A DNA stretch of 45,219 nucleotides from a virus (IMGVR_UViG_3300037961_006176:1-45219), one strand, 5' to 3'. Shown: positions 8,681-38,005, counted from the stretch's first letter. Made by a program: numbers and translations. The notes: a model not told the origin generated them from the sequence alone.

Positions 8681-10309
8681 TTACATCATCCCCATCATTG
8701 ATGGATCCATTTGTGGTTGATTTTTATTATTGTCTTCTTCTAATTCATTTACTACAGTACATTCTGTTAATAAAACTGTACCAGCAACTGATGCTGCGTT
8801 TTCTAGTGCTAATCTAACTACTTTAGTTGGATCAATAATACCAGCTTTTTTCATATCAGTTATCTTATTAGTTTTTATATTATAACCCGCCCAAGCATCA
8901 TCACCAGAATTGATTAATTGATCAGCTAATATCTGTCCTTTAACTTCATCATAACCAGCATTTACTAGAATTTGATTAAATGGTTTTGCACAAGTTGCCT
9001 TTACAATTTGCGCCCCAGTTGTTTTTGCTTCTATACCAGAAGAGGCATATAGTAAAGCTGTTCCACCTCCAGGTACAATACCTTCTTCAATTGCAGCTTT
9101 AGTGGCATGAAGAGCATCATCAACTCTATCTTTCTTTTCCTTCATTTCAGTTTCAGTATTTCCTCCTACATGAATAATAGCTACTCCACCTACAAATTTA
9201 GCTAATCTTTCTTGTAATTTTTCTACTTCAAATGGAGTTTCTGCTTTATCTATTTGGTTTTGAAGTTCTTCTATTCTCTTTTCAATAACTTCAACTTCAC
9301 CTTTTCCATCTACTATAGTTGTTTTTTCCTTTTCTACAGTAATAGTTCTAGCTTCTCCAAACCAATCCCAACTGAACTTATCAAGCTTCATTCCTTTTTG
9401 CTTATCAAATACTTTACCACCAGTTGTAATAGCTATATCCTCTAAAACTAATTTTCTTCTATCACCAAAATCAGGGGCTTTAACGGCACATACTTTCATT
9501 GTACCTCTCATTTTATTAACAATAAGAGTAGCAAGTGCTTCATTATCAATATCTTCAGCAATAATTAATAACGATCTTGCTTGTGCTGATACAGCTTCTA
9601 AAACAGGTAATAATTCTTTAACCTGAGTTAGTTTTTGGTCAGCAATAAGAACGAGGGGATTTTCTAAAGTAGAAGTCATATTACTATTATTAGTAACAAA
9701 ATATGGTGATTTATACCCTCTCTCAAACTGTAACCCTTCAACAGTCTCTAAATACGTTTCACCTGTACGAGATTCTTCTATATGAACAACCCCCTCCATT
9801 CCGACTTTGTCTATTGCTGTTGCAATCAATTTACCAACCTCTTTGTCATTGTTTGAGGAAATTGTTGCAATTTGTTCTAGTTGTTTTTCACCTGAAATAT
9901 CTTCAGATATTTGTTTTTTTAGATTTTTCACTACCTCACTTACAGTTGCATCTATATCTCTTTTAATTTGAACTGCATTTTCATTATTATTCAAAGCATT
10001 TAATCCTGCTTTTATCATATTACTTGCTAATAATGTAGAAGTAGTAGTACCATCACCAGCTTTTTCAGCTGTTTTAATAGCAGCTTGTTTAACTAATTGT
10101 ACTCCTAGTTCCTGGTTAGGATCTTTTAATGTTATAGATTTAGCCACTGTTACTCCATCTTTAGTTGATTGAGGAACTCCTTGATCATTTGCTATAACAA
10201 CATTTCTACCATTAGGTCCTAAAGTTGATACTACAGCATTTGCTAGTGTATCAATACCTTTTACTAAATTTTTTCTGGCTGATGAGCCAAATTCTACTTT
10301 TTTATTCAT
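8681..10309 (-). CDS. groEL: Chaperonin GroEL
   Basis: A full-length 542-residue group I chaperonin (E. coli GroEL has 548). The ATPase signature GDGTTT is at residues 85-90, with LGPNGRNVVI near 30-39. The apical domain includes FERGYKSPYFVTN, and GGGTALLY lies near residue 410. The C-terminus has a short MDPSMMGMM tail like the Gly-Met tails of bacterial GroEL. It is probably active, because catalytic motifs and length are intact. It overlaps groES by 8 bases. Full GroEL genes are uncommon in T4-like phages, which normally supply only a GroES-like gp31. Confidence 0.97.
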   Translation of the reverse strand: MNKKVEFGSSARKNLVKGIDTLANAVVSTLGPNGRNVVIANDQGVPQSTKDGVTVAKSITLKDPNQELGVQLVKQAAIKTAEKAGDGTTTSTLLASNMIKAGLNALNNNENAVQIKRDIDATVSEVVKNLKKQISEDISGEKQLEQIATISSNNDKEVGKLIATAIDKVGMEGVVHIEESRTGETYLETVEGLQFERGYKSPYFVTNNSNMTSTLENPLVLIADQKLTQVKELLPVLEAVSAQARSLLIIAEDIDNEALATLIVNKMRGTMKVCAVKAPDFGDRRKLVLEDIAITTGGKVFDKQKGMKLDKFSWDWFGEARTITVEKEKTTIVDGKGEVEVIEKRIEELQNQIDKAETPFEVEKLQERLAKFVGGVAIIHVGGNTETEMKEKKDRVDDALHATKAAIEEGIVPGGGTALLYASSGIEAKTTGAQIVKATCAKPFNQILVNAGYDEVKGQILADQLINSGDDAWAGYNIKTNKITDMKKAGIIDPTKVVRLALENAASVAGTVLLTECTVVNELEEDNNKNQPQMDPSMMGMM

Positions 10310-10673
10310 TAGATATGTTATTTATTTGTTCAAATTCTTCTTTAGTTACTTCTGTCTCTGCTATTACTTCTTCAATAGCTGTTTTACTATTAACTTTAGC
10401 TAGTACCTGGTTTTCAGGTCCAACATAGTATTCTTCTCCATCATAAGGTAATTTAGTAAAGCCCATAGTTGGTAGTACTACTTTATCTCCTACTTTTAAA
10501 ACTGTAGGGATAAATTCTCCACTAATAGTAGGTTTACCAGGTCCAACTGCTACAACCTCACCAAATTCATTTTTTTCTTTACCTAAATCAGGTACAATAA
10601 TATTTCCGTAAGTAGTCTCTTCTGACTCAAACGGTTTAACGATAACTGCGTCAAATAGTGCTTCTAATTCCAT
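10302..10673 (-). CDS. groES: Co-chaperonin GroES (gp31-like role)
   Basis: A 123-residue cpn10. ALFDAVIVKPFESEETTYGNIIVPD covers the first strands and the mobile loop (the hydrophobic IIV would contact GroEL). FGEVVAVGPGKP and VGDKVVLPTMG are the standard GroES core, and EYYVGPENQVLAKV is the last strand. It is longer than bacterial GroES (about 95) because of an acidic C-terminal tail of about 25 residues, and closer to T4 gp31 (111). It caps GroEL during folding of capsid and other phage proteins. It overlaps its neighbours on both sides. Confidence 0.93.
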   Translation of the reverse strand: MELEALFDAVIVKPFESEETTYGNIIVPDLGKEKNEFGEVVAVGPGKPTISGEFIPTVLKVGDKVVLPTMGFTKLPYDGEEYYVGPENQVLAKVNSKTAIEEVIAETEVTKEEFEQINNISNE

Positions 10674-10968
10674 CTGTGTATTCTTTTATGTTATTTCTTA
10701 TATTTTTAAATTGTGTTAAAAATTCATTTAAATCTAATTTCTTTTTAATGTGTAATTGTTCATCACTAATCCACCTTAATGCTTGATCAAATCTAGCATG
10801 GTAAGAAATTGATTTTGAATAAGTTTTACTTTTACCCTTAGACCTAAAATGGTCTTTATCGGATTCAACTTTTACATTAACAGTATAACAATGATCATCC
10901 TTAGTAATAAAATAAGGATCTAAAATAGGATCTGTAATTGTTGTTATTGATTTTGCTTTTCTAGCCAT
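10651..10968 (-). CDS. Hypothetical basic protein, first gene of the groES-groEL operon
   Basis: A 105-residue, Lys/Arg-rich soluble protein that I do not recognise. The middle holds short basic stretches (FRSKGKSKTYSKSISYHARF) and a C-terminal helix (DLNEFLTQFKNIRNNIKEY). No known motif is visible. It overlaps the groES start by 23 bases and would be co-expressed with the chaperonins. A CGTATATT motif lies 26 bases before its ATG. Confidence 0.6.
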   Translation of the reverse strand: MARKAKSITTITDPILDPYFITKDDHCYTVNVKVESDKDHFRSKGKSKTYSKSISYHARFDQALRWISDEQLHIKKKLDLNEFLTQFKNIRNNIKEYTDGIRSTI

Positions 10969-10994
10969 ATAACTTTTTTATTTGTTGTACCATC

Positions 10995-11002
10995 AATATA
11001 CG
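10995..11002 (-). promoter_or_regulatory. CGTATATT motif before the groES-groEL operon
   Basis: The minus strand reads CGTATATT, about 26 bases before the ATG at 10968, within the 73-base gap after hsp20. It is preceded by a T-rich run (TTTTTTA). It has the same core and similar spacing as the copies before gp32 (37238-37245) and the 54-residue gene (25448-25455). Confidence 0.45.
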
Positions 11003-11007
11003 TAAAA

Positions 11008-11025
11008 AACATTGCTAGGACACGT
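11008..11025. repeat. Inverted repeat, arm downstream of hsp20
   Basis: The plus strand reads AACATTGCTAGGACACGT. The minus strand at 11518-11538, upstream of hsp20, reads the same sequence with a 3-base insertion (TAG after AACATTG) and one A-to-G change. The two arms are opposed and enclose hsp20. Confidence 0.7.
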
Positions 11026-11041
11026 TTTTTTTGTAAAACTA

Positions 11042-11464
11042 TTACTTAATTTTAATAGACTTTGGTTTAGCCTCTTCAGCTAATGGTATAAAAATTTCTA
11101 ATAAACCATTTGCTAAAGTAGCATCAATATTACCTAAATCAAATTTAGGAGCTATTTTATACCTTAAATCAAATGATTTTTTAGATAAACCATTATGAAT
11201 AATTCCTGGATGGAGTTCTTCTTTTTCTGGTTTACTATAACTTATTTTTAAAATATCCCCTTCAATATCTAAGACTACGTCTTTTTTAGTAAGACCAGTA
11301 CAAGCTACTTCAAAATGAAGTCCTGCATCGTCAAAGAAAATATTAAGTGGATGTGGTTGTTTGAAATTTCCAACAGGTTGAAATGTGCTGTCAGATTTAA
11401 AGTGATTCCTAAAAAGGATGTCGAAAGGACTTATATGCCTTTCAAAGATTTCTAATGTACTCAT
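11042..11464 (-). CDS. hsp20: Small heat-shock protein, Hsp20 family
   Basis: A 140-residue alpha-crystallin-domain protein. The N-terminal arm (about residues 1-45) is followed by the domain core: LHFEVACTGLTKKDVVLDIE, then LKISYSKPEKE, KSFDLRYKIAPKFDLGNIDA and LANGLLEIFIPL. The ANGLLEI(F) segment is the family's A-x-x-x-n-G-v-L hallmark. The C-terminus PKSIKIK carries the I-x-I motif used in oligomer assembly. It binds unfolded proteins without ATP and passes them to chaperonins, which are encoded just downstream here. Hsp20 is common in marine T4-like phages. The gene has its own long leader with a promoter-like box and a hairpin. Confidence 0.92.
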   Translation of the reverse strand: MSTLEIFERHISPFDILFRNHFKSDSTFQPVGNFKQPHPLNIFFDDAGLHFEVACTGLTKKDVVLDIEGDILKISYSKPEKEELHPGIIHNGLSKKSFDLRYKIAPKFDLGNIDATLANGLLEIFIPLAEEAKPKSIKIK

Positions 11465-11560: not shown

Positions 11561-12286
11561 CTATTCGTTTCTCGCAACAAAGTATTCACTTTTTATATCC
11601 TCAGAGTTAAAATTTAATTTTAACATTCCGATTTTTGATAATTTTAAAGTGCCATTTTCTTGATCTTTATTGGCATTTAAAATATCTTTAAATATATCGG
11701 AATCAAATGGAACCGATATATCATTTTCTTTTACTTTACCATTCATTTGGTATGTAATTTTATTAGAAAACCCAGTACTATCACCAAATATGAATTCACA
11801 AACTAGATTTCCATCTATGTCAGTAGTTGAATTTATCAACATATTATTAACATCTGATAGTGCACTTTTTGCCTTAATTAAATGGTCAATATCCTCTTGA
11901 GATAAATCTAATTCAATATCAAACCCTTCTTCGGGATCATCATAATATGTGTTTTTACCTAATATTAAAGTATCAGCTAATGAATAGGTTAAATCAAAAT
12001 TAGAATCAGCTATGTTTATTTTAGTATAAACCGCTTTCATTTTTTCTAATGATAAAACTAAATCTCCATTAGTAATAGATATTAATTTACTTAATTTATT
12101 AGTATCAAATACACCTAATTCTGAATCTTCTAGTGGAAAATTATTTAATTCTACTTTACATACTCTTCCTGCTTCACCAGCATAAACTGTAAGTGTATTG
12201 TCTTTAATCCTCCACTTAACCTGGTTGTTTAAGCCATTTATATAATATTTAGCAATTGTGCTTGTTAATAGGTTTTTACTAATCAT
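11561..12286 (-). CDS. 45: Sliding clamp, gp45-like
   Basis: A 241-residue protein, close to T4 gp45 (228). It starts with LLTSTIAKYYINGLNNQVKW and has a DNA polymerase processivity-factor pattern: DNTLTVYAGEAGRVCKVEL, the LGVFDTNKLSKLISIT strand-helix and a matching second domain with FDSDIFKDILNAN. Three copies would form a ring around DNA and tether the gp43 polymerase; in T4 the clamp also activates late transcription. It follows the gp43 C-terminal gene after a 23-base gap that contains a CGTATATT motif. Confidence 0.85.
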   Translation of the reverse strand: MISKNLLTSTIAKYYINGLNNQVKWRIKDNTLTVYAGEAGRVCKVELNNFPLEDSELGVFDTNKLSKLISITNGDLVLSLEKMKAVYTKINIADSNFDLTYSLADTLILGKNTYYDDPEEGFDIELDLSQEDIDHLIKAKSALSDVNNMLINSTTDIDGNLVCEFIFGDSTGFSNKITYQMNGKVKENDISVPFDSDIFKDILNANKDQENGTLKLSKIGMLKLNFNSEDIKSEYFVARNE

Positions 12287-12309: not shown

Positions 12310-13245
12310 TTAGATTTCAAAGGAACTTAATGCATTTATGTGGGGATTTAAATCTAATGACCATCCTAAATCACTAAAAAATCCTTCTAATTTATTTAAT
12401 AATATTGATTCAAATACTTTTTGCCTGTCAGCATATATATCTAAAAAATCTTTTATTTTATCTGGCATATCATAATCTAAAAATGCTAAAGCTTCTATTT
12501 TATATGGGTTATCTTTTAAATAAATCCATTTAACCTTATCCGCCATTGTTATTTGATTATGTTTTTTATCTAAATTCCAGAACTTTAATAAATCATTATA
12601 TCTAATAGCAGCTCTTACAGGTGCAGGAGCTCCCTTTTCTATATCAGAAAAAATTTCACCAGCACTTGCTTTTCTTCCTCTATATTTTTTTAATTTTTTA
12701 ACAGCTGTAGGGTTACCTAGTTTACCAATAGGTATTTCTCCATTTAATATTTGTTTTTTAAATTTTTTTATTTGATCTAATATTTCTTTATGTGGTACTC
12801 CTTTAAGTACTTGTTGTAATATGTTATTAAAAAAATCTCCTAAAATAGGTGGGAAGTTAGCTTTCATAAACTCTAAACCCTTAATATCTAGTGTTTCTTT
12901 TTCTATACCCTCTTGTTTAGTAATCCATTGAGCATATCTTCTAGTAGCTCTAAAATAAGCAGAACGAATAACACATTCTGTTTTCATTTCCAATCTATGA
13001 GAAGAAACATTAAAGCAATCTTTAGCTAATTGATCATAATGTTCTGTAATTATATCTTGGTAAGCTAAAGCTACCTTTTCCAGTTTATTATCTTTCTCTT
13101 TATCTGGTAAGCTTTCAAAGTTAGGAAATAAATGCAAAAGTATAGGTTCAGCATTAAAATAGTTCGAATCCGTGTCCACATAAGCGCAGTAATTAGTATC
13201 TTCTTTATCACAAATAAACCAAGGTGTTTCTTCTAAATGTTTCAT
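12310..13245 (-). CDS. 43: DNA polymerase family B (gp43), C-terminal part
   Basis: A 311-residue protein holding the missing half of the polymerase at 15933-17642. AYVDTDSNYF at residues 21-30 is family B motif C, with the two catalytic Asp. RRYAQWITKQEG corresponds to the KKRY/thumb entry motif after the palm. The C-terminal 150 residues (GRKASAGEIF onward) match the gp43 thumb region. Together the two parts give 880 residues against 898 for T4 gp43. It starts with its own ATG overlapping the previous gene by 4 bases. No intein residues are seen at the junction, so the halves must join non-covalently. Confidence 0.9.
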   Translation of the reverse strand: MKHLEETPWFICDKEDTNYCAYVDTDSNYFNAEPILLHLFPNFESLPDKEKDNKLEKVALAYQDIITEHYDQLAKDCFNVSSHRLEMKTECVIRSAYFRATRRYAQWITKQEGIEKETLDIKGLEFMKANFPPILGDFFNNILQQVLKGVPHKEILDQIKKFKKQILNGEIPIGKLGNPTAVKKLKKYRGRKASAGEIFSDIEKGAPAPVRAAIRYNDLLKFWNLDKKHNQITMADKVKWIYLKDNPYKIEALAFLDYDMPDKIKDFLDIYADRQKVFESILLNKLEGFFSDLGWSLDLNPHINALSSFEI

Positions 13246-13628
13246 TTATAATCTTTATATGATTTTTCTTCTACTAAACCAGATTTAGTTAATAAATTTA
13301 TTTCTTTTTTTACTTCGGAACGTCTATCATTAGTAACATATACTGATCTTGCTAGTTGTATAAATTCAGCATCAAATCTTTTTTCACGTTCACAATCTCT
13401 AATCCAATCTTCAATATCCCAAAGTTGGCCATTTATCTCGGCTAATTTAAGATACAAATTTTGTAGCTGGGATCCAAACTTTTCAAATAATTTTACACAT
13501 AAAGGATTAAGAGTATAAAATTCCTTTTCAATATTAACTAATTTTTTCTTATCTTCAATTTTAAGCATTTTTAATTCCAAAATTGAGATTTTATCTAATA
13601 ACTCTCCGTTTGATATTTCTATTTTCAT
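13242..13628 (-). CDS. DUF6165-family protein
   Basis: A 128-residue helical protein. ISNGELLDKISILELKMLKI at the start and LAEINGQLWDIEDWIRDCER plus FIQLARSVYVTNDRRSEVKK later match the DUF6165 pattern (S-x-GELLDKI-x-IL-x-x-K; LW-x-IED-x-IR; laR-x-VY-x-x-ND-R). This family is found in cell-surface polysaccharide clusters, with no proven activity. It overlaps the gp43 C-terminal gene by 4 bases (ATGA), so it is coupled to it. It is part of the sugar-related set inserted between the polymerase halves. Confidence 0.7.
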   Translation of the reverse strand: MKIEISNGELLDKISILELKMLKIEDKKKLVNIEKEFYTLNPLCVKLFEKFGSQLQNLYLKLAEINGQLWDIEDWIRDCEREKRFDAEFIQLARSVYVTNDRRSEVKKEINLLTKSGLVEEKSYKDYK

Positions 13629-13629
13629 A

Positions 13630-14319
13630 TTATAAGCTTATTTTTTTATAAACTAATTTACTATTATAACCTGGTTCTTCCTTGCTAACTAATATCCATT
13701 TACTTTGGTCTTCCTTTAGTTTATGATAAACAAATGCTCCTTTTCCTACTATAGGATATTCTATAGTTAATTTCTCCCAATTAGTATCTGCTTTATTATC
13801 CTTCCATTCTACCCAAGTTCCTTTAAAATAATTATCATCTATTATAATAAGAGAATTAATTGGCATTTTATCTTCAATAGCGCAAAATTCTTCCCAACCA
13901 TGTATAGCACAAGGAAATGGATCTTTTAAATTTAAATCCATAGAATCTAAATGAACAATATTAGGAATTATGTTTATGTTTTTTAAATATTCAACTGAAT
14001 CTGATGTTGAATGAAAAACATTTTTTAATTTTAAATTCTCATACATAAGGGAGCTTTTATTAACTATATTATTATCAATATCAACTGAGTAAAAATTACC
14101 CCCTGTTTTTTCACACATTTTAGCTAGTAAAACACCTACACAACCATCATTCCAGTTTTGTGATGCCCCCGTTTCAATACAAGTTATAGTATCAAAATTA
14201 ATATGATCCTTAATAGAAATAAAGAATTTTTCCAATTGGTTTAATCTTTGATTCATTCCATCATAAGTTACCCCAGGATTGAATGAACGATACCAATTAA
14301 ATATTTCTTTTAAATCCAT
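13630..14319 (-). CDS. SAM-dependent methyltransferase-like protein
   Basis: A 229-residue protein with a Rossmann-type start: TITCIETGASQNWNDG (about residues 43-58) in place of the glycine loop, NFYSVDIDNNIV as strand 2, IVHLDSMDLN as strand 4, and NSLIIIDDNYFKGTWVEWKD as strand 5 with a DD pair. This is the layout of class I methyltransferases related to CmcI and 'methyltransferase 24' proteins in sugar clusters. The DD near strand 5 may bind a metal. The substrate is unknown; a glycan is likely from the neighbours (DUF6165, FkbM, cupin isomerase). Confidence 0.65.
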   Translation of the reverse strand: MDLKEIFNWYRSFNPGVTYDGMNQRLNQLEKFFISIKDHINFDTITCIETGASQNWNDGCVGVLLAKMCEKTGGNFYSVDIDNNIVNKSSLMYENLKLKNVFHSTSDSVEYLKNINIIPNIVHLDSMDLNLKDPFPCAIHGWEEFCAIEDKMPINSLIIIDDNYFKGTWVEWKDNKADTNWEKLTIEYPIVGKGAFVYHKLKEDQSKWILVSKEEPGYNSKLVYKKISL

Positions 14320-14327
14320 AAATCTAA

Positions 14328-14594
14328 TTAAAATTTACCACTTTCTCCTGGTATTTGGATTATTCCTTTATCTTTAGTTCCATCTGATCTTAGTCTATCA
14401 TTGTATTGTAATGATATATCATATGATACATTATTTATTTTAAATTTTCCTCCTTGTTTTAACATTTTCCTAAAAAAGGACTCTTGTTTTTCATCCCAGG
14501 ATTCACTAATTAAAATTAATTCTTCTTTAGATATAGGAGCGTCATTAGCTAAAATATACATTCCTTTTCTTATTGATTGTTTTTTTAAAGCCAT
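14328..14594 (-). CDS. Small hypothetical protein
   Basis: An 88-residue soluble protein, basic at the N-terminus (MALKKQSIRKGMYIL) with a helix (ISKEELILISESWDEKQESF) and a C-terminal part with beta character (GKFKINNVSYDISLQY). I recognise no family. It lies 1 base downstream of the FkbM gene and 8 bases upstream of the methyltransferase gene, inside the insertion between the polymerase halves. Confidence 0.6.
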   Translation of the reverse strand: MALKKQSIRKGMYILANDAPISKEELILISESWDEKQESFFRKMLKQGGKFKINNVSYDISLQYNDRLRSDGTKDKGIIQIPGESGKF

Positions 14595-14595
14595 A

Positions 14596-15420
14596 TTAAT
14601 TAGTTTTTAAAGCTAAACAAGATACATTATTTTCAAAATCTAGTTTATACCCTTTGTTAGTTAAATAATTTTTAATATCTTCAAGTTCTTCAGTTAATAA
14701 ATTTTCCCATTCAAAAATAATACAATTAGGTAAATTTTTTAAACTTTTAATTAAAATATGATCATAACCTTCAACATCTAAATGTAGCCAATCTATCTTA
14801 TCATCAACTAATTTATTTATATTAATAGAAGGATAAATTGTAGGTTTGATTGGTTCTATTTCTTGTGCATCAGGTACTCTTTTTACAATTGAATTAGTAT
14901 ACCCTTTTCCTCCTTCCCAAAATGGAGTTGGTTTACCATCACTAGTAACTAATAAATTTAATAACTTTACATTTTTATATTTTGAATAGTTTTCTTTTAG
15001 TTCTTTAAATTGTTTATTAGATGCCTCTACTAAAGTAGCTTCTGTAAGATTAGAAATAACAGATGGAACCCATTCTCCAAATGCTCCATCATGAGTACCT
15101 ATAGCTACTCCTTTTGGTTTAATTCCTTTTGAGTTTAAACTTAAAATATAATAATAAAACTTTTTATAAAGTTCAAATCCATATTCCTGAACACTCCAAC
15201 TTTTTTCCCAAAGTAAAGTTTTATTAGCATCATAAACTAGAGCATTATATATTTCTGTGTTTGGATAATGAGCCCAAGAATCGGAATTAAGCTCTACCTC
15301 CCAAGTAACTTTTTTAGAAATAGGGTTTACTATTTTAAGAGTTAACGGAGTAGGAATATAAGATGGTATTTTCCCTATATTAACTTTTATGTCTTTATGT
15401 TTATACTCTATCGAAATCAT
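14596..15420 (-). CDS. FkbM-type SAM-dependent methyltransferase
   Basis: A 274-residue class I methyltransferase. KGVAIGTHDGAFGEW (about residues 104-118) is the SAM-binding loop, ATLVEASNKQFKEL the strand-2 acid, and IDWLHLDVEGYDHILIKSL the FkbM signature (DVEGyD), followed by FEWENL. About 100 N-terminal residues before the catalytic domain are extra and may bind the acceptor. Its 5' end overlaps the cupin gene by 20 bases. It is one of two FkbM enzymes in the window; O-methylation of sugars is the usual role. Confidence 0.85.
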   Translation of the reverse strand: MISIEYKHKDIKVNIGKIPSYIPTPLTLKIVNPISKKVTWEVELNSDSWAHYPNTEIYNALVYDANKTLLWEKSWSVQEYGFELYKKFYYYILSLNSKGIKPKGVAIGTHDGAFGEWVPSVISNLTEATLVEASNKQFKELKENYSKYKNVKLLNLLVTSDGKPTPFWEGGKGYTNSIVKRVPDAQEIEPIKPTIYPSININKLVDDKIDWLHLDVEGYDHILIKSLKNLPNCIIFEWENLLTEELEDIKNYLTNKGYKLDFENNVSCLALKTN

Positions 15421-15778
15421 CCTCTAGTCTAACAATATCATCTTCTCCAAAATAAGTTCCTGTTTGGACTTCAATAAAAATTACATCTTCAGAAGTTTCG
15501 TTCCAAGCTCTATGTTTGGCTCCTAATGGAATGTGTATTGATTCACCTGGGTATCTAAATACTTTGTCATCATCTAAAATTATAGTTAAATTACCTTTAA
15601 CTACAATCCATTCTTCTCTTCGTTTATTATGGTATTGGTAAGATAATCTTTTACCAGGTTTAACTCTTATTCTTTTTACCTTAACATTCCATTCATCTAA
15701 TAATATTTCATATTCACCCCAAGGTCTATTTTGTTCAGGGCTAGGTAGGTTATTCCACCAACTATCTACTATACTCAT
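15401..15778 (-). CDS. Cupin, type II mannose-6-phosphate isomerase-like
   Basis: A 125-residue single-domain cupin. NRPWGEYEILLDEWNVKVKR at the start, LSYQYHNKRREEWIVVKGN with the metal-binding His/Glu, IPLGAKHRAWN with the third His, and EVQTGTYFGEDDIVRLEDDF at the end match the C-terminal isomerase domain of ManC/AlgA (E-x-Q-x-G-x-Y-x-GEDDIVR). It would interconvert fructose-6-phosphate and mannose-6-phosphate, or a related sugar, feeding NDP-sugar synthesis. It overlaps FkbM on one side and a 53-residue gene on the other (ATGA). Confidence 0.85.
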   Translation of the reverse strand: MSIVDSWWNNLPSPEQNRPWGEYEILLDEWNVKVKRIRVKPGKRLSYQYHNKRREEWIVVKGNLTIILDDDKVFRYPGESIHIPLGAKHRAWNETSEDVIFIEVQTGTYFGEDDIVRLEDDFDRV

Positions 15779-15936
15779 TTTACGTATCCACTTTTAATTT
15801 TTTTAATCATATCTCTAATTTGATCATTCCAAAGACTCCAAGTGTCTCTATCCTGTTCAAAATAAGCTTGTTCACATCTAGTTTTTGTTTCACTTTCAAA
15901 AACATTTAATAGGTTTAGTAATTGATCTTTTATCAT
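15775..15936 (-). CDS. Small hypothetical protein, 53 residues, directly after gp43 N-terminal part
   Basis: Translating the minus strand from the ATG at 15936 gives a 53-residue, helical, charged protein (MIKDQLLNLLNVFESETKTR at the start, IRDMIKKIKSGYVK at the end). Its ATG overlaps the TGA of the polymerase gene (ATGA) and its own TGA overlaps the ATG of the cupin gene (ATGA), exactly as expected of a real coupled gene. No family recognised. Because it starts where the polymerase half ends, an interaction with the split polymerase is conceivable but not shown. Confidence 0.65.
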   Translation of the reverse strand: MIKDQLLNLLNVFESETKTRCEQAYFEQDRDTWSLWNDQIRDMIKKIKSGYVK

Positions 15937-17642
15937 AGTTCTAATTTTACTTCATTTTTAATTACTTTATTCATATGTTTATTAGCACATAAAGCTGATT
16001 CCTGGATAATACGGTGACCAGTTAATGTAATTGCTTCACTTAAAATAGATAAACTCATTCCATATCTAAATGAAGGTAAAGCTGTAGCACCATACAAACT
16101 GTTAAGCAAAATTTTCATTGTATATTGCATTAAGTAATAGTACTCACCTTTTTCTTTATCTCCAGCTTTATAAGCTAATTTCATTTTATTTTTATAATCT
16201 ACTCTTTCATCAAACCATTTATTTAAAATAGTTGATAATGTTGATTCTTTTTTAGTATCAAAAATACTCCCATTTGCTGATATAGCTAGTCCATTTTGTT
16301 CTATCATAGCTACTAGTCTACCTACATTAACTTTAGTTTGTTGTCCTTTAGGATTTTCAACTAATAATTCTTCATCTTGATCACGTTCCTTTAAATCATT
16401 AAGACCTAATCTATTATTTCTATCATCAGCATCTACTATTCTTCCAACAAATGTTTCTTTACCTATATTTAAAGACATTATAATAGATGGATATAGTGAA
16501 GTTAAATCCTCATCAAACATATATTTATACAAACCTGCTTTAGGGCAAAATAAGTAACCACCAGCATAACCTTTTTTACTTTTAGGATTAGGATCTTTGG
16601 CTGGGGGAATTATATTTTGAGATAATAGATAAGCTGAAATTGCTCCGTCTTGTGTATTACTATTAGCATAAACTTCACTATAATTATGTTTGCCTTTATG
16701 TGATAAGTTTTTAGTTAAAGCAATATACTGTAATTTTTCGTCTAGTAATTTTAGTATCTCAACATCACGAAAGTTATATTGAATGAATTTTTGAATATCA
16801 GTTTCAAATAATTGATCTAAATTACCCTCATATTCTACTTTACCTATACCTGTATATTTTTCTCCTATTGCATCTAATTTCCAACTAGGTTCATCTTTCC
16901 AACTATACTTTTTATGTAATCTCATATAGTCTAGGGATTCAACTCCTACAATATCTACAAATTGATTACGTTTAAAGAAATATTGATTACCTTTTTTAGC
17001 ATTTACTCTACTTATTGGTGATAATTCATTAGCAAATTCATCTCCTAATACATTGCACATTCTATAATATAAATAAGGTATATCAAAAAAATCACTATTA
17101 TAACCAATTAAAATATCAGGATCAATTTCTCTAAAATGTTCTAAAAAGTTAGCAAGTAAACTTTGTTCTGTGTTACAAGGTATAATTTCTTTATTTTTAG
17201 CTTTAGTACGTTTTAATTCGTCTTTTTTATCTAAAACTAAAATTACCCATTTATCTGGGGTTTTGTCCCAGTAGGCAATAGATGTAATAGGCATAGGAGC
17301 TCTTTCTATATACTCCTCAGTTAAAGCTCCTCCAATTTCACACTCTATATCAAAAAATAATTCTCTATGACCTGTAGATGGTTTATCATCAATACCATAT
17401 CTCTCAATAAGATATTTTTGATAAGGTTTCATATCATGGAAATGTAAATTAGGGGTGTTTTTATTCCATTCATAGGTCCTAATTAGATTTTCCCCATTAA
17501 TTCCCTTATCTGTAGCCTTGTCTTTAGAACATTCTTTATATGCAGTGTTATACCATTCAAGTTCATCATAACCTGCTTCATCCCATAAATGAATTTTATA
17601 TTTATTATTTCCTAACCTTGTGGCATAACATTTTTTATACAT
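15933..17642 (-). CDS. 43: DNA polymerase family B (gp43), N-terminal part
   Basis: A 569-residue protein with the exonuclease and first half of the polymerase domain. Exo I FFDIE is at 96-100, exo II YNSDFFD at 181-187, exo III YNFRDVE at 289-295, polymerase motif A DLTSLYPSII at 379-388, and motif B KILLNSLYGA at 510-519. It ends about 50 residues after motif B, before motif C, which is encoded separately at 12310-13245. All proofreading and motif A/B catalytic residues are intact, so this is a functional split, not decay. The TGA overlaps the next ATG. Confidence 0.93.
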   Translation of the reverse strand: MYKKCYATRLGNNKYKIHLWDEAGYDELEWYNTAYKECSKDKATDKGINGENLIRTYEWNKNTPNLHFHDMKPYQKYLIERYGIDDKPSTGHRELFFDIECEIGGALTEEYIERAPMPITSIAYWDKTPDKWVILVLDKKDELKRTKAKNKEIIPCNTEQSLLANFLEHFREIDPDILIGYNSDFFDIPYLYYRMCNVLGDEFANELSPISRVNAKKGNQYFFKRNQFVDIVGVESLDYMRLHKKYSWKDEPSWKLDAIGEKYTGIGKVEYEGNLDQLFETDIQKFIQYNFRDVEILKLLDEKLQYIALTKNLSHKGKHNYSEVYANSNTQDGAISAYLLSQNIIPPAKDPNPKSKKGYAGGYLFCPKAGLYKYMFDEDLTSLYPSIIMSLNIGKETFVGRIVDADDRNNRLGLNDLKERDQDEELLVENPKGQQTKVNVGRLVAMIEQNGLAISANGSIFDTKKESTLSTILNKWFDERVDYKNKMKLAYKAGDKEKGEYYYLMQYTMKILLNSLYGATALPSFRYGMSLSILSEAITLTGHRIIQESALCANKHMNKVIKNEVKLEL

Positions 17643-18171: not shown

Positions 18172-18640
18172 TATCTTTCATTTTTTTCCACCAAGATGTT
18201 TTGGCTCCACCTGGCATAGTTAGACCACCAATATAATGAGAATCTCTTAAATGCTCAACCTCCTTTAAGTAATCAGGTATAGCTTCTGAATCTTCTCTCT
18301 CCCATGGATATACTATCCATTGATCTCCTACTTCTTTAGCATAAATGCAATCTTTAAATTTTGAAGTAGGTTTATTATGTAACACAGCCCAATAAGCACC
18401 TGGTGCTTTACTTAAAGTATGTCCTGTATCATTAATATCATCCACAACTAAAGTATTCTTACCTGGATGTAAAACATAAGGTAATCCTAATTCATGTGAA
18501 ATTAATACTGCTGGGATTAAACCTCCTCTCGGTAATCCCATTACTGAATCTATGTTTGGGTAATCCATAAAGATTTTATAACATAGCATTCTTACACATT
18601 CGTGTATTTCAGACCATTCTAAATAAACTTTATTACTCAT
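18164..18640 (-). CDS. Purine phosphoribosyltransferase (guanine/xanthine/hypoxanthine type)
   Basis: A 158-residue PRTase. SVMGLPRGGLIPAVLISHEL is the pyrophosphate-loop region and NTLVVDDINDTGHTL the PRPP-binding motif. The ending VGDQWIVYPWERED resembles the W-x-x-x-PWE segment of xanthine-guanine PRTases. I take the ATG at 18640, which shares bases with the folE2 stop (TAATG), rather than the ATG at 18667, which would overlap folE2 by 28 bases. It converts a purine base plus PRPP to the nucleotide. In this cassette it could recycle guanine released by DpdA. Confidence 0.82.
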   Translation of the reverse strand: MSNKVYLEWSEIHECVRMLCYKIFMDYPNIDSVMGLPRGGLIPAVLISHELGLPYVLHPGKNTLVVDDINDTGHTLSKAPGAYWAVLHNKPTSKFKDCIYAKEVGDQWIVYPWEREDSEAIPDYLKEVEHLRDSHYIGGLTMPGGAKTSWWKKMKDNE

Positions 18641-19659
18641 TAAGATATATGAATTAAACTTGACCATGTTTCATGTGAAACATCGGGGCAAAACTTACTA
18701 TTTGGATGTAGAATAACTGATATAGCATCATGTGAATGTAACGATTCTTGATGTGAACATATTACTCTAAAATCCTTTATTCTTTTATCTGCAATTAATT
18801 GCTCATATATTAATCTAGCAGCATCTTCTACAAATTTAAGATAAGAACCATTTAATTCAGCAAATGCCATTTCATCTTCTCTTTTTACTACTACTTGAGT
18901 TTCTGTATTGAGAGCTCTATCACACATTTCTTGTAATTCCTCTATCCAAACCATATCTTCAAATTCAATGGATATTCTAGCTACTGATCTTTGTGAATGT
19001 GATACTGTGGCTTTATTTCTATATTTTCTAGCATACTCAGCTAATTCATAAGAACAAGGACAAGCTGATGAATATACAAAATCAAAATGAATGTATTTTT
19101 TAAGTTCACCCTCTTTATTTAAATCACCTTCTAAAGTAACATTGTAATACTGGTAGCCCTCATTATCTGATCTTAGTGATTTTTTAATAATAGGGTAAGA
19201 AAATTTAAGTGCAATTTTAGAATCAAATGTATTTAATTTTTCCTTATAAGCATATAAAATATCTTTTAATTTATCTATACTAAAAGTATCATTTCTAAAT
19301 TCATAAAAGGATCTCATAATACGAGACATATTAATACCTTTTTTATGTGCTTCTAAAGATACTGTACCCGTTACTTTAGTTTCTAATTCTATATCACCAT
19401 TATCCCTTGTTGAATATTTTAGTGGTAATCTAAAATTATGGATTCCCACTTGTTGAATTTCAACGGGAGAACCTTGAATTAATGATGAAGGACCATTTTG
19501 CAAATCAGGAAAGGTTTCAATATCTTCCTTTGTAGCAATATAATCTGAATCATAATCCCTATTTGGTTCATTATATTTTATTGAATGTTCATTTGGTTCT
19601 GGTTCTTTGTAGGAATTTACATCTCCCACCCATTCATATTTTTTTTCGAATTTACTCAT
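18640..19659 (-). CDS. folE2: GTP cyclohydrolase FolE2 (type IB)
   Basis: A 339-residue enzyme. Family features are GIHNFRLPLKY early, KGINMSRIMRSFYEF (the FolE2 M-S-R helix), YSSACPCSYELAEYA with the metal-binding/catalytic Cys, SHSQRSVARISIEF, and the C-terminal ESLHSHDAISVI. The first 65 residues are an extra polar extension compared with bacterial FolE2 (about 270 residues). It converts GTP to 7,8-dihydroneopterin triphosphate, the first step toward 7-deazaguanine. Together with QueD, QueE and a QueC homologue it gives the pathway a GTP entry point. Confidence 0.92.
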   Translation of the reverse strand: MSKFEKKYEWVGDVNSYKEPEPNEHSIKYNEPNRDYDSDYIATKEDIETFPDLQNGPSSLIQGSPVEIQQVGIHNFRLPLKYSTRDNGDIELETKVTGTVSLEAHKKGINMSRIMRSFYEFRNDTFSIDKLKDILYAYKEKLNTFDSKIALKFSYPIIKKSLRSDNEGYQYYNVTLEGDLNKEGELKKYIHFDFVYSSACPCSYELAEYARKYRNKATVSHSQRSVARISIEFEDMVWIEELQEMCDRALNTETQVVVKREDEMAFAELNGSYLKFVEDAARLIYEQLIADKRIKDFRVICSHQESLHSHDAISVILHPNSKFCPDVSHETWSSLIHIS

Positions 19660-19786
19660 TTTCTAAATATTCTTTTAATTTATCTATTAATACTAATACT
19701 TCATCTGGTTCCATTGTTATTGCACAACAAACACCAACATTTTCCTCTATTTCCTCTAAAATTTCTAATGCTTCTTCTCTAGACAC
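19652..19786 (-). CDS. Small hypothetical protein between queE and folE2
   Basis: A 44-residue frame with a GTG start at 19786 that overlaps the queE stop; it ends 8 bases inside folE2. It is acidic and helical (EEALEILEEIEENVG, then DEVLVLIDKLKEYLENE) with two adjacent Cys in the middle. An upstream TTG at 19852 would give 66 residues but would overlap queE by 74 bases, and an internal ATG would leave about 20. The start is therefore uncertain. It fills an otherwise empty 119-base gap, which supports a real gene. Confidence 0.5.
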   Translation of the reverse strand: MSREEALEILEEIEENVGVCCAITMEPDEVLVLIDKLKEYLENE

Positions 19787-20561
19787 AACGCTCAGTATTA
19801 AATGCCATAATATGAGCTCTGCCCGTAAATCTCCAACCTCTATCCCTAGCAAAATTCATTACAGGTCCATAACTTTCAAATAAAGATTCCCTATCATCAC
19901 CAGCAGGCATAACCCAAACTTTATCATCTGGTATATTACATTCTTTAAGGAAATCTTCTACTTCACTAACCATAGATAATTTATTATCTAATACAGGTTT
20001 AATATGATAATCATCATGATACTCAATAGACTGTTTTATAGCTTCTACATTGCATCTTTTCGAGTTATGTTTTTTAACCATCCTTTCGTCGACAATTGCT
20101 CCTTGAGGAGTAGTAGCACCAATAACGGGAATGCTATTACTGAACTTAGGAGAAATTGAAAGGAGATTAATAGGATAATCAGTGGGAAGGAAATGACTTC
20201 CTTCAGTTTCGATAGTAATAAAGATATTATTTTCATGAGCAAAATGAGTTAATTCATTTACTAGAGCAGGATGCATTGTAGGAGAACCTCCTGTTAACAT
20301 CATCTCCTTTATATGAGGATGATCATTATACATGTCAATAATATCTTGGAAACAATAAGTACCTTTTTCTGGGTGAATACTTGTATACCAAGAATCACAC
20401 CAACCCCCCTCTCCAAAATAACATCTATGTGTGCATCCTGATGTTCTAACAACAATTGTAGGATAACCTTGTCTTGATCCTTCTGATTGTACTGCGGTGT
20501 AAAGTTCTAACACCCCTAGAGTCTTTTGATAGTCCTCTATTCTTTTTAATTGTTTGTGCAT
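19779..20561 (-). CDS. queE: 7-carboxy-7-deazaguanine synthase QueE (radical SAM)
   Basis: A 260-residue enzyme. LGVLELYTAVQSEGSRQGYP is the usual QueE start. The cluster motif is C-x3-C-x7-C (CTHRCYFGEGGWCD), longer than the standard C-x3-C-x2-C because of an insertion. MMLTGGSPTMHP is the GGE-like motif, IFITIETEGSH a later strand, and LLSISPKFSNS the S-P-K motif of QueE. It turns 6-carboxy-tetrahydropterin into 7-carboxy-7-deazaguanine. It lies between queD and folE2 in the cassette. Confidence 0.9.
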   Translation of the reverse strand: MHKQLKRIEDYQKTLGVLELYTAVQSEGSRQGYPTIVVRTSGCTHRCYFGEGGWCDSWYTSIHPEKGTYCFQDIIDMYNDHPHIKEMMLTGGSPTMHPALVNELTHFAHENNIFITIETEGSHFLPTDYPINLLSISPKFSNSIPVIGATTPQGAIVDERMVKKHNSKRCNVEAIKQSIEYHDDYHIKPVLDNKLSMVSEVEDFLKECNIPDDKVWVMPAGDDRESLFESYGPVMNFARDRGWRFTGRAHIMAFNTERCV

Positions 20562-20605
20562 ATTGTTAATTTTTTAAAGTGGTTTTTCATTCACTAATAA
20601 CCTTT

Positions 20606-21070
20606 TTATTCGCTATAATAAGCTGCATTTTTGCCGTGTTCCATAAACTTAACTTTAGTAACTCTAACTCTACCTTCAGTTTCAGTATCAACAAACTTAT
20701 TAAGCTTATTATAAATATATTCAGCAAATTTCTCTGCGCCAGTAGCCGGTATTACTCTTACTTGAGCTACTCCAGCTGTGTCCATTTCCTTAAATGCATT
20801 AATATATGGATCATCCTCAGCAACTATTAGAGTATGATCAAACATATAATCCATCCATTCTTTAGGTGATTTACCATCAATTTTAGTTTTGGCTCTTTTC
20901 ATACCACCAAAATCCCAAACCCAATTTCTTTCATCTAAACCTCCTTCAAAATAAACTTTAAATGAAATTCCATAACCGTGAATAAATCTACAGTGTGTTG
21001 TTTCTGCTTTCCATTGACGGAACACTGTACTAAATCCGTCAAATACTTTACTTGATTGAAATTTACCCAT
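20606..21070 (-). CDS. queD: 6-carboxy-tetrahydropterin synthase QueD
   Basis: A 154-residue member of the PTPS/QueD family. THCRFIHGYGISFKVYF holds the catalytic Cys and the H-G-(H/Y) metal-site segment, VWDFGGMKR is the D-F-x-x-(L/M)-K motif, and MFDHTLIVAEDD contains the D-H-x-x-L motif. GAEKFAEYIYNKL replaces the common P-T-x-E-N-x-A helix. It makes 6-carboxy-tetrahydropterin from dihydroneopterin triphosphate, the FolE2 product. It overlaps the thioredoxin gene by 8 bases. Confidence 0.88.
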   Translation of the reverse strand: MGKFQSSKVFDGFSTVFRQWKAETTHCRFIHGYGISFKVYFEGGLDERNWVWDFGGMKRAKTKIDGKSPKEWMDYMFDHTLIVAEDDPYINAFKEMDTAGVAQVRVIPATGAEKFAEYIYNKLNKFVDTETEGRVRVTKVKFMEHGKNAAYYSE

Positions 21071-21311
21071 TATAAAAATTTAATATTTGTGCGTCTGGTT
21101 GGTTACCAACTAAACGTCTTAATTCTTGACCATTTTGGTCAACTAAAACTAAACTAGGAACACTTCTAACTCCATACTTCATAGACATTTCTCTATTTTG
21201 ATCAATATCTATTTTTTTGTAATTAATTTGCCCCTTTAACTTTTCCATTCTCGGTGCTAGTGCCTTACAAGGACCACACCATGCTGCTGTAAAATATAAA
21301 ATTGTATTCAT
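21063..21311 (-). CDS. Thioredoxin
   Basis: An 82-residue small thioredoxin. FTAAWCGPCKALAPRM has the WCGPC active site. YKKIDIDQNREMSMKYGVRSVPSLVLVDQNG supplies the rest, including the cis-Pro loop (SVPSL). It is shorter than E. coli thioredoxin (108) but similar to phage thioredoxins and glutaredoxin-length forms. It can reduce ribonucleotide reductase (nrdA/nrdB are at 30186-32889) or other phage enzymes. It overlaps queD. Confidence 0.9.
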   Translation of the reverse strand: MNTILYFTAAWCGPCKALAPRMEKLKGQINYKKIDIDQNREMSMKYGVRSVPSLVLVDQNGQELRRLVGNQPDAQILNFYNG

Positions 21312-21313
21312 AA

Positions 21314-21532
21314 TTAAACTAATTCTTCTATTATACCTATTAACTCACTAAATATAAGAACCCCTACTGCAATAGGCACGGAATATAGTAAAAGTCCATA
21401 ACCAGCTAATCTAAAGCCGGATTTAATAAAACTTACAATTTGATGCCATTTTTGATTTGGCATATATTCTAAATTTTCTCTATCTTTTTTAATACTGTTA
21501 AAATCTTTCATATTTTTATTTTTTATATCCAT
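21314..21532 (-). CDS. Small single-span membrane protein
   Basis: A 72-residue protein with a polar, charged N-terminal 40 residues and one hydrophobic segment at about 44-65 (GYGLLLYSVPIAVGVLIFSE). It ends IIEELV. The ATG at 21532 overlaps the upstream glycosyltransferase stop by 10 bases; an ATG seven codons in (21511) is also possible. No family recognised. Confidence 0.6.
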   Translation of the reverse strand: MDIKNKNMKDFNSIKKDRENLEYMPNQKWHQIVSFIKSGFRLAGYGLLLYSVPIAVGVLIFSELIGIIEELV

Positions 21533-22419
21533 TCTTTAATTTCATTAAATACATATTCTGGTGTGATGCTAGTATGACATTCAAATTGTCTGGGTGTGTT
21601 TTTATGTTCAGGGCACCAATACCAATCACTAACATCAAAAACTTTATCTTTAGAATTCCAACAACCATGACAAACATTTTTATTAGTTATTCTTTTGTAA
21701 TTATTTAAGTTTAAATCAAATTCATGCCAATCTTCTGTAAAATTAGCTATCATAGCAACTGGTTTATCTAATGCATGAGCAACCCAAGCAATACCCGAAG
21801 ATAACCCAATATAAAACTCTGAATGCTCTATATAATTAATTACTTCAGATAAAGGTAAATTTAATTTTTTAACTGATTTTTTAGGTGTTCCATTAAAAAA
21901 TGGACTCTTACCAAATAATTCATGTTGGTCTAAACAAACAGGAGTAATTCCTTCTTTTCTTAACATTCCACATAATTCTTTCCAATAAGGAGATTCTGGT
22001 TGTTTTCTAATTCCCTGTGGAGAGTTCCAATATTTTAATTGACTTGTTGACTGAATGCCAAAAGTAACATACTTACTTTTTATTGGTCTTTCTTTTTTAA
22101 ATGAATCAATTTTAGGTCTTATATATCCTGGGTTTTCGAATCCTAATTGTTCAGCCATACCTTGTTGTAATGGGCTATGAAAATTATAATTAACATCTAA
22201 TGATACATCAAAAGGTTGTGTTCTAGAATTAAGATAATTATCGTCTACAAATATAATATTTGGGTATGATTTAATAAATAAGTTATGAAAATATCTATTA
22301 GCAAAAAAATAAACATTGCAGTTATGTTTTTGTCTATATAATTCTAGATAAGGCATTAGAGCAATAGTATCTCCTAATGATTTAGATAATAAATTAATTA
22401 AATGGTCTTTTATTATCAC
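21523..22419 (-). CDS. TibC-like (BAHT) O-heptosyltransferase
   Basis: A 298-residue GT-B enzyme of the GT9 type. LLSKSLGDTIALMPYLELYR at the start and SEFYIGLSSGIAWVAHALDK in the donor domain match heptosyltransferases, in particular the bacterial autotransporter heptosyltransferase (TibC/AAH) family. The C-terminal part has four Cys (C-x2-C in NVCHGCWN, then WCPEH and FECHTS), as in the iron-finger motif of that family. It would transfer heptose from ADP-heptose to Ser residues of a protein. ADP-heptose enzymes are encoded at 37274-38382. The start is GTG, overlapping the preceding stop (TAGTG). Confidence 0.78.
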   Translation of the reverse strand: MIIKDHLINLLSKSLGDTIALMPYLELYRQKHNCNVYFFANRYFHNLFIKSYPNIIFVDDNYLNSRTQPFDVSLDVNYNFHSPLQQGMAEQLGFENPGYIRPKIDSFKKERPIKSKYVTFGIQSTSQLKYWNSPQGIRKQPESPYWKELCGMLRKEGITPVCLDQHELFGKSPFFNGTPKKSVKKLNLPLSEVINYIEHSEFYIGLSSGIAWVAHALDKPVAMIANFTEDWHEFDLNLNNYKRITNKNVCHGCWNSKDKVFDVSDWYWCPEHKNTPRQFECHTSITPEYVFNEIKEWI

Positions 22420-22610
22420 TATTTTCCTCCGTTCTTTCTATAATCAATTATAAACCCAATAGCTACTAAAATATTTAAACCTAAACTAGCTAATATCTCA
22501 TGTATATCTTGATACACATTTAAACTTAAATGAACATGCCCTATAATCCAAAACGGAATAGCCATTTGCTGACTATACCAAATTAAAGCAAATTCTAAAA
22601 ATTTTTTCAT
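22419..22610 (-). CDS. Small membrane protein, 63 residues
   Basis: A 63-residue protein with two hydrophobic segments (about 6-28 and 41-56) and a basic end (DYRKNGGK). The frame is open further upstream to an ATG at 22694, but that region is the tRNA-Gln gene, so the ATG at 22610 (MKKFLEFALIWY) is chosen; it follows an AAAATT leader like many genes here. The stop overlaps the next GTG start. Family unknown. Confidence 0.65.
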   Translation of the reverse strand: MKKFLEFALIWYSQQMAIPFWIIGHVHLSLNVYQDIHEILASLGLNILVAIGFIIDYRKNGGK

Positions 22611-22622
22611 AATTTTAATTTG

Positions 22623-22693
22623 TAGTCTCATAAGGATTCGAACCTTAACTAGCTGGACCAAAACCAGCTGTGCTACCGTTACACCATGAGACA
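22623..22693 (-). tRNA. tRNA-Gln (anticodon UUG)
   Basis: The minus strand folds into a full cloverleaf of 71 bases. It has a D-arm GTGT/GCAC, an anticodon stem GCTGG/CCAGC with loop TTTTGGT (anticodon TTG, reading CAA), a 4-base variable loop, and a T-arm TAAGG/CCTTA with loop TTCGAAT. The acceptor stem pairs at six positions; the first pair is T-T, in line with the weak first pair of Gln tRNAs. CCA is not encoded. It lies 6 bases after queC. Reading CAA fits the AT-rich codon use of this phage. Confidence 0.92.
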
Positions 22694-22699
22694 ATTGTA

Positions 22700-23524
22700 T
22701 TATTTTGAATACTCAGATAATACTTTTGCTACTGAATCTCTTGCTACTTCCCAAGTAACAGGCCCCGTTTCATCAGCATATTCTACTGGGTCAGGTCTTC
22801 CTAATGCAATAAAAGCTTCAATTCTTTCTACTGATGAAGCTGATTTATAATCAGAATACCATTTCCAGGCGTTAGTTTCAGGTCTATAATAGTGTTTAAT
22901 AGGCTTATAAGATGTGTTAGTTCTTGAATAAACTTCATCAAACTCTAATCCTAATTCCTCACATAATTCTTCTCCATCTTTTAAAATACCTAATTTATCA
23001 GTATCTAAATAAGGAGTAAAATAACCAACTCTATCAGCATCCCAATTACCAACTCTAAATGCATTGTCGTCTGCATCTCTAAATTCTTGTCTACAATCAG
23101 GATAAATAGCATGATCACCAGCGTGGATACCTAAACAAATATCAACATTTTCTTCTGTAGCATTTGCCTTAGATAAAGCTACTGCTTGAGTAATAGAAGC
23201 GAACATTTTATTTCTATTAGGTACTACTGTTTCTTTCATATTATCTTGCTCATAATGTCCTTCTGGAACATCATCTCCACCTTCTACTAAAGCGGAATTT
23301 AACAAATCAACTAAACCATCAAGTTTAATTTGTTTGTAAGTAATATTAAAGCCTTTACTTGCTAAATAATCTATAAGAGACTGTGCTCTTTCTAGTTCAA
23401 CTCTATGCTTTTGACCATAATCAAAAGATAAAGCTGTAACTGAACTGTACTCAGATAACGCCCTGAGTAAAAGTGTGGAACTATCCATTCCGCCACTTAA
23501 CGATACAACTGCATGATTATACAT
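22700..23524 (-). CDS. queC: QueC-family protein lacking the zinc site
   Basis: A 274-residue PP-loop protein. VVSLSGGMDSSTLLL is the ATP-binding loop, VTALSFDYGQKHRVELERA the next QueC motif, VVPNRNKMFASI the third, and YPDCRQEF and YFTPYL follow. In ordinary QueC four Cys near the end bind zinc (C-Y-x-G ... C-G-x-C-x-x-C). Here the region reads RTNTSYKP ... YSDYKSASSVERIEAF with no Cys at all. Canonical QueC turns the 7-carboxy compound into preQ0; this one may differ, for example a decarboxylase of the DpdL type. It overlaps dpdA by 8 bases. Confidence 0.85.
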   Translation of the reverse strand: MYNHAVVSLSGGMDSSTLLLRALSEYSSVTALSFDYGQKHRVELERAQSLIDYLASKGFNITYKQIKLDGLVDLLNSALVEGGDDVPEGHYEQDNMKETVVPNRNKMFASITQAVALSKANATEENVDICLGIHAGDHAIYPDCRQEFRDADDNAFRVGNWDADRVGYFTPYLDTDKLGILKDGEELCEELGLEFDEVYSRTNTSYKPIKHYYRPETNAWKWYSDYKSASSVERIEAFIALGRPDPVEYADETGPVTWEVARDSVAKVLSEYSK

Positions 23525-37273: not shown

Positions 37274-38005
37274 TTAAATAACTACAACTCCTTTTTTTTC
37301 TACAACCTCTAAAGCACACTTTTGTGCAAAAGCAATACTTTCGATAACATTTTTACTAGTTAAATAGCTAAAAACAAAGGCAGCAAAAAAAGTATCTCCC
37401 GCCCCTGATAAGTCAGAAACTTCTGCCTTTCTTTGAGGTGGAATAATTGTATCATTATATTTAACCCCATTTTCACCCAATGTAACTAATAAATTTCCTT
37501 TATAATTTTTTAAATATTTTTGATTTTTATCAAATTCAAACTCATTTATTTTTATAAATGTAGTTTCATTTATCCATTTATCAAATATTTTTTTAGAGTC
37601 AATAAAAGATAAAGGATATTTATCAATAAGATATTGAATAATCCTTTCTGTTAAAAAACCTTTATTATAATCACTAATTACAACAGCATCATAGTCTCCT
37701 AATCTAGTGATAACATCATTTTTTACCCTTTTACAACTATCATCCTCATCTACTCTTAATAACATTTGGTTAGTTTTAATATCAACTAATCTTGTTTTTG
37801 TAATTTCATCTTCATTAGTAACCAAATCTATATCCCAATTTTTAGCTAAACTTGCTAAATTATTAAAAACATTTTTAGCCATTCCTCCATTTGATTTTTG
37901 TTCAATAGGATTAAATACAGGTACAGGAGCTTCAGGGCAAATTCTATTACATTCACCGTAAACAAATTTATCTATACAACTATCTCCTATAACTAATACT
38001 TTCAT
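37274..38005 (-). CDS. HldE-type heptose-7-phosphate kinase (PfkB/ribokinase family)
   Basis: A 243-residue sugar kinase. KVLVIGDSCIDKFVYGECNR is the RfaE1/HldE start, PEAPVPVF plus SNGGMAKNVFNNL the substrate loop, and SDLSGAGDTFFAAFVF the PfkB signature with catalytic Asp. It is shorter than the HldE kinase domain (about 310) through loss of part of the lid. With the adenylyltransferase gene just upstream (overlap ATGA) it would make heptose 1,7-bisphosphate, two steps before ADP-heptose. The two enzymes are a fusion in many bacteria. Confidence 0.85.
   Translation of the reverse strand: MKVLVIGDSCIDKFVYGECNRICPEAPVPVFNPIEQKSNGGMAKNVFNNLASLAKNWDIDLVTNEDEITKTRLVDIKTNQMLLRVDEDDSCKRVKNDVITRLGDYDAVVISDYNKGFLTERIIQYLIDKYPLSFIDSKKIFDKWINETTFIKINEFEFDKNQKYLKNYKGNLLVTLGENGVKYNDTIIPPQRKAEVSDLSGAGDTFFAAFVFSYLTSKNVIESIAFAQKCALEVVEKKGVVVI

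Follow-up and report, generated by a model that had tools for sequence, protein, structure and literature searches.

The stretch of DNA analysed here (the window) is a 45,219-base IMG/VR record, the metagenomic fragment IMGVR_UViG_3300037961_006176:1-45219, in which a T4-type family B DNA polymerase (gp43) is encoded by two separate genes of the minus strand. The first (15933-17642) encodes an N-terminal half of 569 aa with the exonuclease domain, the palm motif A and the fingers with motif B, and the second (12310-13245) a C-terminal half of 311 aa with motif C (DTDS), a KxRY-type motif, the thumb and the C-terminal end. A gp45-like sliding clamp gene (11561-12286, minus strand; phrog_223, E=0.003) lies directly downstream of the C-half, and a cluster of phage GroEL, GroES and Hsp20 genes (8681-11464) adjoins these replication genes. 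The halves are 2.69 kb apart, and the six complete genes that the initial annotation had placed in this interval of about 2.7 kb are indeed present as intact ORFs, all on the minus strand and with 4-nt overlaps of the ATGA type at gene junctions. From the N-half onwards, they encode a 53-aa product without any family match and found in no other gap (15775-15936), a mannose-6-phosphate-isomerase-like cupin of 125 aa (15401-15778; PF01050, E=8e-30), an FkbM-type methyltransferase of 274 aa (14596-15420; PF05050, E=3.7e-7), an 88-aa protein that is a near-constant occupant of the gap (14328-14594), a 229-aa protein (13630-14319) and a DUF6165 protein of 128 aa (13242-13628; PF19662, E=3e-11). The name of isomerase given earlier to the cupin stands as a match to the MannoseP_isomer domain at the E-value above. 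The 229-aa protein matched only phrog_24975, a family of unknown function, and neither Pfam nor NCBIfam returned a methyltransferase, so that its proposed identity as a possible class-I methyltransferase derives from motifs read by eye.

The assignment of the exonuclease motifs and motifs A and B to one gene, and of motif C and the thumb to the other, is borne out by Pfam, by phrog_262 and by the fold of RB69 gp43. The N-half contains the DNA_pol_B_exo1 (E=1.4e-21) and DNA_pol_B (E=5e-23) domains of Pfam and corresponds to positions 39-569 of the 856 of phrog_262 (T4-type DNA polymerase; E=9.5e-111), and the C-half to positions 565-844 (E=6e-43), which indicates that the halves are complementary and that no polymerase sequence has been lost. 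They meet at phrog_262 position 565-569, in the loop just before the catalytic motif C; in an alignment with T4 gp43, the break falls at residues ~606-612, a few residues before the DTDS of motif C (T4 618). An AlphaFold model of the C-half (pLDDT 81) matches RB69 gp43 residues ~611-903, with a Z of about 20 and ~280 aligned residues. Taken together, the exo motifs, motifs A and B, motif C, the thumb and an RB69-like C-terminal fold, all features of T4-type gp43, are thus found across the two proteins. The DNA_pol_B family PF00136 is matched at only two places in the 45-kb record, which are the two halves.

Distribution and age of the split

Relatives were gathered by scanning IMG/VR with the N-half and the C-half of the window and with one distant member as queries, and loci with at least 60% identity in the N-half were regarded as members of the clade. 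In all 219 clade loci, about 91 of them distinct by junction sequence, gp43 is divided at one and the same point, with no intact copy among them; the window aside, the 218 fetched loci are mostly environmental viral contigs. The window being a metagenomic fragment, an assembly artefact or a chimeric contig could be suspected, but an identical break recurs in about 91 distinct loci drawn from many different metagenomes, as well as in two MAG contigs, and this leaves the explanation a vanishingly small probability. Nor was an intact gp43 found elsewhere by PF00136, either in the record itself or in 17 related contigs of up to 139 kb, a search in which no second PolB gene appeared. In 16 of these contigs (30-119 kb) the two halves are the only PF00136 matches, and in the 139-kb contig the family detects the N-half only, with the C-half below threshold but visible by tblastn.

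The split clade is monophyletic with 100/100 support and sits on a long stem. Its nearest intact relatives, the Microcystis phage Mel-JY01 and environmental kin, share about 36-38% identity with it, and a search for intermediates between both groups found none. These sequence comparisons indicate that the gp43 split is clade-wide and old, and not peculiar to the phage of the window. No description of this clade was found in the open-access literature. As for the host, one relative (L375) lies on a contig assigned to a Flavobacteriaceae MAG from the North Sea, and a Shine-Dalgarno-like core precedes just 1 of 43 gene starts in the window, as expected for Bacteroidota; both are weak hints of a host in that phylum. 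Other genes of the window include one tRNA (22623-22693; Rfam RF00005) and a set of preQ0 genes (18640-23524) with a FolE2-type GTP cyclohydrolase (PF02649), a QueE-like radical SAM protein and QueC, suggesting 7-deazaguanine modification of DNA or tRNA.

Conservation of the two halves

Both halves bear the marks of working proteins. Throughout 69 loci, not one of the catalytic residues of exo I-III and of motifs A, B and C varies, and dN/dS ranges 0.14-0.20 (0.195 for the N-half and 0.137 for the C-half). The spacing between the C-half and the clamp gene is nearly constant at 26 nt, and genes for gp44, gp45, gp32 and a DnaB-type helicase are present in the window. The ends created by the break are also conserved. 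The C-half opens with a new head, MKHLEETPWFICD, several positions of which are conserved at 97-100%, and the N-half of the window finishes in a short tail, VIKNEVKLEL, which in the clade most often has ten residues of the type V-I/M-R/K-N/G-E-I/L-K-L-E-I. The new tail (like ...NEIKLEI) and head probably form part of the joint between the halves. Damaged C-halves were seen in two loci, one with an internal stop (L042) and the other broken into two frames (L076), reflecting either sequencing errors or recent decay.

A different reading of the locus would be that the split gp43 is a decaying remnant and that another enzyme replicates the genome, for instance a PolIII-alpha-like protein of 419 aa encoded in the window (38835-40094), which weakly matches the DNA polymerase family phrog_17 (E=9e-6). 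A minimal PolIII alpha in split form, accompanying PolB, has been described in jumbo phages (PMC7824862), and the 419-aa protein may be part of a similar system. Decay is nevertheless very improbable for a gene pair under the constraint described above, with invariant active-site residues in both halves, a fixed distance to the clamp gene and the replication genes just named in the window.

Other broken polymerases and the origin of the break

That T4-type polymerases can be made as two proteins is already known. In the Aeromonas phages 44RR2.8t and 25, as in the window clade, two neighbouring genes encode the polypeptides of a T4-type PolB, and for phage 25 the 43A and 43B proteins have been shown to purify together and to be active as a polymerase (PMC2988022). 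This precedent, raised in the initial annotation, holds, although at a different break point: the Aeromonas split lies between motifs A and B (T4 ~511-521; 498 + 391 aa) and that of the window clade before motif C, at T4 ~606-612, which makes them separate events. The gaps differ as well, with about 50 nt of untranslated DNA in 44RR or a homing endonuclease gene (HEG) in phage 25, as opposed to protein-coding cargo in the window clade. A further parallel is the split NrdA of phage Aeh1, also an essential enzyme in two reassembling pieces, but a different enzyme and with the HEG mobE in its gap (PMC2988022).

Two routes could in principle rejoin the halves covalently. Gene 43 carries group I introns in Aeromonas phage 25 and in JSE (PMC2993671), and RNA splicing (of an intron of group I or II) or ribosomal bypassing might thus operate here; but no Rfam intron family was detected in the gap of the window at E<=1, so that RNA splicing, like an intact gp43 elsewhere, failed as a refutation of the initial annotation in the sequences searched. 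Moreover, both halves possess conserved start and stop codons of their own, and the gap is filled with complete genes, overlapping at their starts and stops and unrelated in identity between relatives, all of which makes this route extremely improbable. The other route is protein trans-splicing through a split intein, for which there are precedents. The Pseudomonas jumbo phage MIJ3 has a split PolB with a split intein and an HNH endonuclease gene (PMC6892783), and in two of the loci examined here (L197:6001-10084 and L292:884-4978) PolB is broken at DTD/S and accompanied by split-intein sequences and by a separate, free-standing ORF that is endonuclease-like but in which Pfam sees only ROS_MUCR/zinc-finger similarity, an arrangement of the Dassa type. 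These systems share with the window clade a PolB in two parts and a gene in the gap, and L197 and L292 also a break near motif C, but they come with the two parts of an intein and with a free-standing endonuclease, or an ORF resembling one, neither of which is present in the window clade. No intein or Hint domain was detected in either half (Pfam, E<0.01), the head of the C-half lacks the terminal His-Asn that would precede the extein, and the N-tail spans only about 10 residues in most relatives, so trans-splicing is very improbable. Likewise, the flanking intein segments and the HEG in the gap typical of Dassa-type fractured genes were not found. In all likelihood, gp43 of this clade is a two-subunit enzyme assembled non-covalently, as judged from the conservation of both halves and by analogy with the Aeromonas proteins.

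Bearing on the origin of the break are two loci of the sister, Mel-JY01-like clade (L361:968-4698 and L362), whose other members have an intact gp43. Here the polymerase is broken near the same loop as in the window clade, but with a long extra tail in the N-half and a HEG with four NUMOD3 motifs (E=5.8e-22) between the parts. The start codon of the C-part (TAATG) lies inside the DTD motif, and this break may therefore be fresh or inactive. A third case, the 484-kb uncultured phage LR756508 (L158:2364-10288), has gp43 split at nearly the same position as the window clade and four non-HEG genes in between (two similar proteins of unknown function, a cytidine deaminase and another unknown). It differs in having cis inteins in both halves and groups weakly with the intact clade (81/67), and is probably a separate event. 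A tail of ~45 aa in its N-half resembles, by eye only, the L361 tail and the intein N4 block; a scan with this N-half as query gave no matches. Altogether, the breaks in L361/L362, L197/L292 and LR756508 indicate that this region of gp43 has been broken repeatedly.

The absence of a HEG noted in the window was confirmed there and extends to all 91 distinct gaps, and a search of the gaps with three HEG-like ORFs as queries recovered no remnants. As to whether such a gene once occupied the gap, none is left in the 91 gaps, but the HEG at nearly the same break in the sister lineage suggests how breaks of this kind arise. By analogy with that lineage, an origin of the break in a HEG that was later lost has a slightly better than even chance.

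The gap and its cargo

Among the 91 distinct loci, no interval of the region varies as much as the gap, which measures between -4 and 4,214 nt, is empty in four loci and falls into 30 distinct length bins, unlike the nearly fixed 26 nt from the C-half to the clamp gene and the fixed spacings from hsp20 to groES. The 88-aa gene is the only near-universal cargo family, present in 85/91 gaps and missing in 6. DUF6165 follows (57/91) and then the cupin (19/91), a cytidylyltransferase-like protein (16/91), the 229-aa protein (3/91) and the FkbM-type gene (2/91). DegT, FkbM, GNAT, formyltransferase-like, glycosyltransferase-like and, by eye, sulfotransferase-like proteins are found in one to five gaps each. 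No cargo family is HEG-like, and within the fetched stretches (most under 18 kb) these families almost never occur outside the gap. The earlier description of the cargo as sugar-modification genes, with no HEG, holds, with the addition that the constant element is the 88-aa gene, the sugar genes varying from relative to relative. The presence of the cupin requires 12 changes on the polymerase tree (shuffles, mean 15 and minimum 12) and that of the 88-aa gene 3, which points to the latter as an old resident and to sugar genes that come and go. A glycan function of the cargo would fit these family assignments. Further sugar genes lie elsewhere in the window: two tandem glycosyltransferase-like proteins (1609-4349; phrog_2170). 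There is also a PfkB-type kinase ORF beside a 126-aa ORF (37274-38382) that apparently matches the cytidylyltransferase-like cargo family, a pair like a two-gene version of the HldE-type ADP-heptose enzyme.

The 88-aa protein (AlphaFold pLDDT 72) has no match in Pfam, PHROG or NCBIfam, nor in the PDB by Foldseek, and its gene did not turn up in those contigs of the sister clade that were searched. A role as an essential third subunit was considered and rejected in view of its absence from six gaps and its relaxed dN/dS (0.45). Equally, an empty gap is probably not ancestral but secondary, since the four empty loci represent a single change, L040 is nested, and the 88-aa gene is already there in the first branches (L082, L072). 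The trees of the N- and C-halves conflict strongly (AU p<1e-49 both ways). When distances are compared across the gap, however, their correlation of 0.71 only borders on the lower end of what is seen inside the gene (0.72-0.82), so the gap was discarded as a recombination hot spot; recombination is frequent throughout the whole region. The gap is, very probably, a stable cargo site.

The most plausible overall account (probability of roughly 0.78) is that of an obligate two-subunit gp43 with a stable cargo site between its genes and a probably HEG-initiated break. The gp43 of an ancestor would have been broken, without loss of sequence, in the surface loop that leads from the palm helix after motif B to the β-strand of motif C, the initial break probably coming from a HEG that later disappeared. 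Both polypeptides would be translated from one operon and associate, with no covalent link, to give a functional replicative polymerase, to which 43A contributes the exonuclease, motif A and the fingers, and 43B motif C, the thumb and the clamp-facing C-terminus, with the N-tail and the MKHLEETPWFICD head probably contributing to the joint. The stretch left between these two essential genes would then have turned into a stable slot, in which the 88-aa gene settled early and further genes, mostly of sugar or surface chemistry, come and go. A more adventurous and rather doubtful extension is that the split is kept as useful, with two essential, conserved half-genes, expressed together with the replisome, flanking a slot dedicated to the exchange of surface-modification genes, and with the 88-aa protein included, perhaps as a joint or regulator of the two-part polymerase.

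What is new here is the position of the break, its fixation across a lineage, the lack of a mobile element in the gap, and a sugar-related cargo that changes while the 88-aa gene stays constant. For a whole phage lineage, a broken replicative polymerase can thus be a fixed and long-lived state, and not just a transient result of HEG activity, and a break in gp43 can find a second use as a place for cargo. With their cut beside the catalytic aspartates, the two-chain PolBs that occur naturally in this clade are also suited to tests of how a polymerase active site is assembled from two polypeptides. If the idea of a dedicated slot were true, these phages would exchange surface-modification genes through a gap flanked by the halves of an essential gene.
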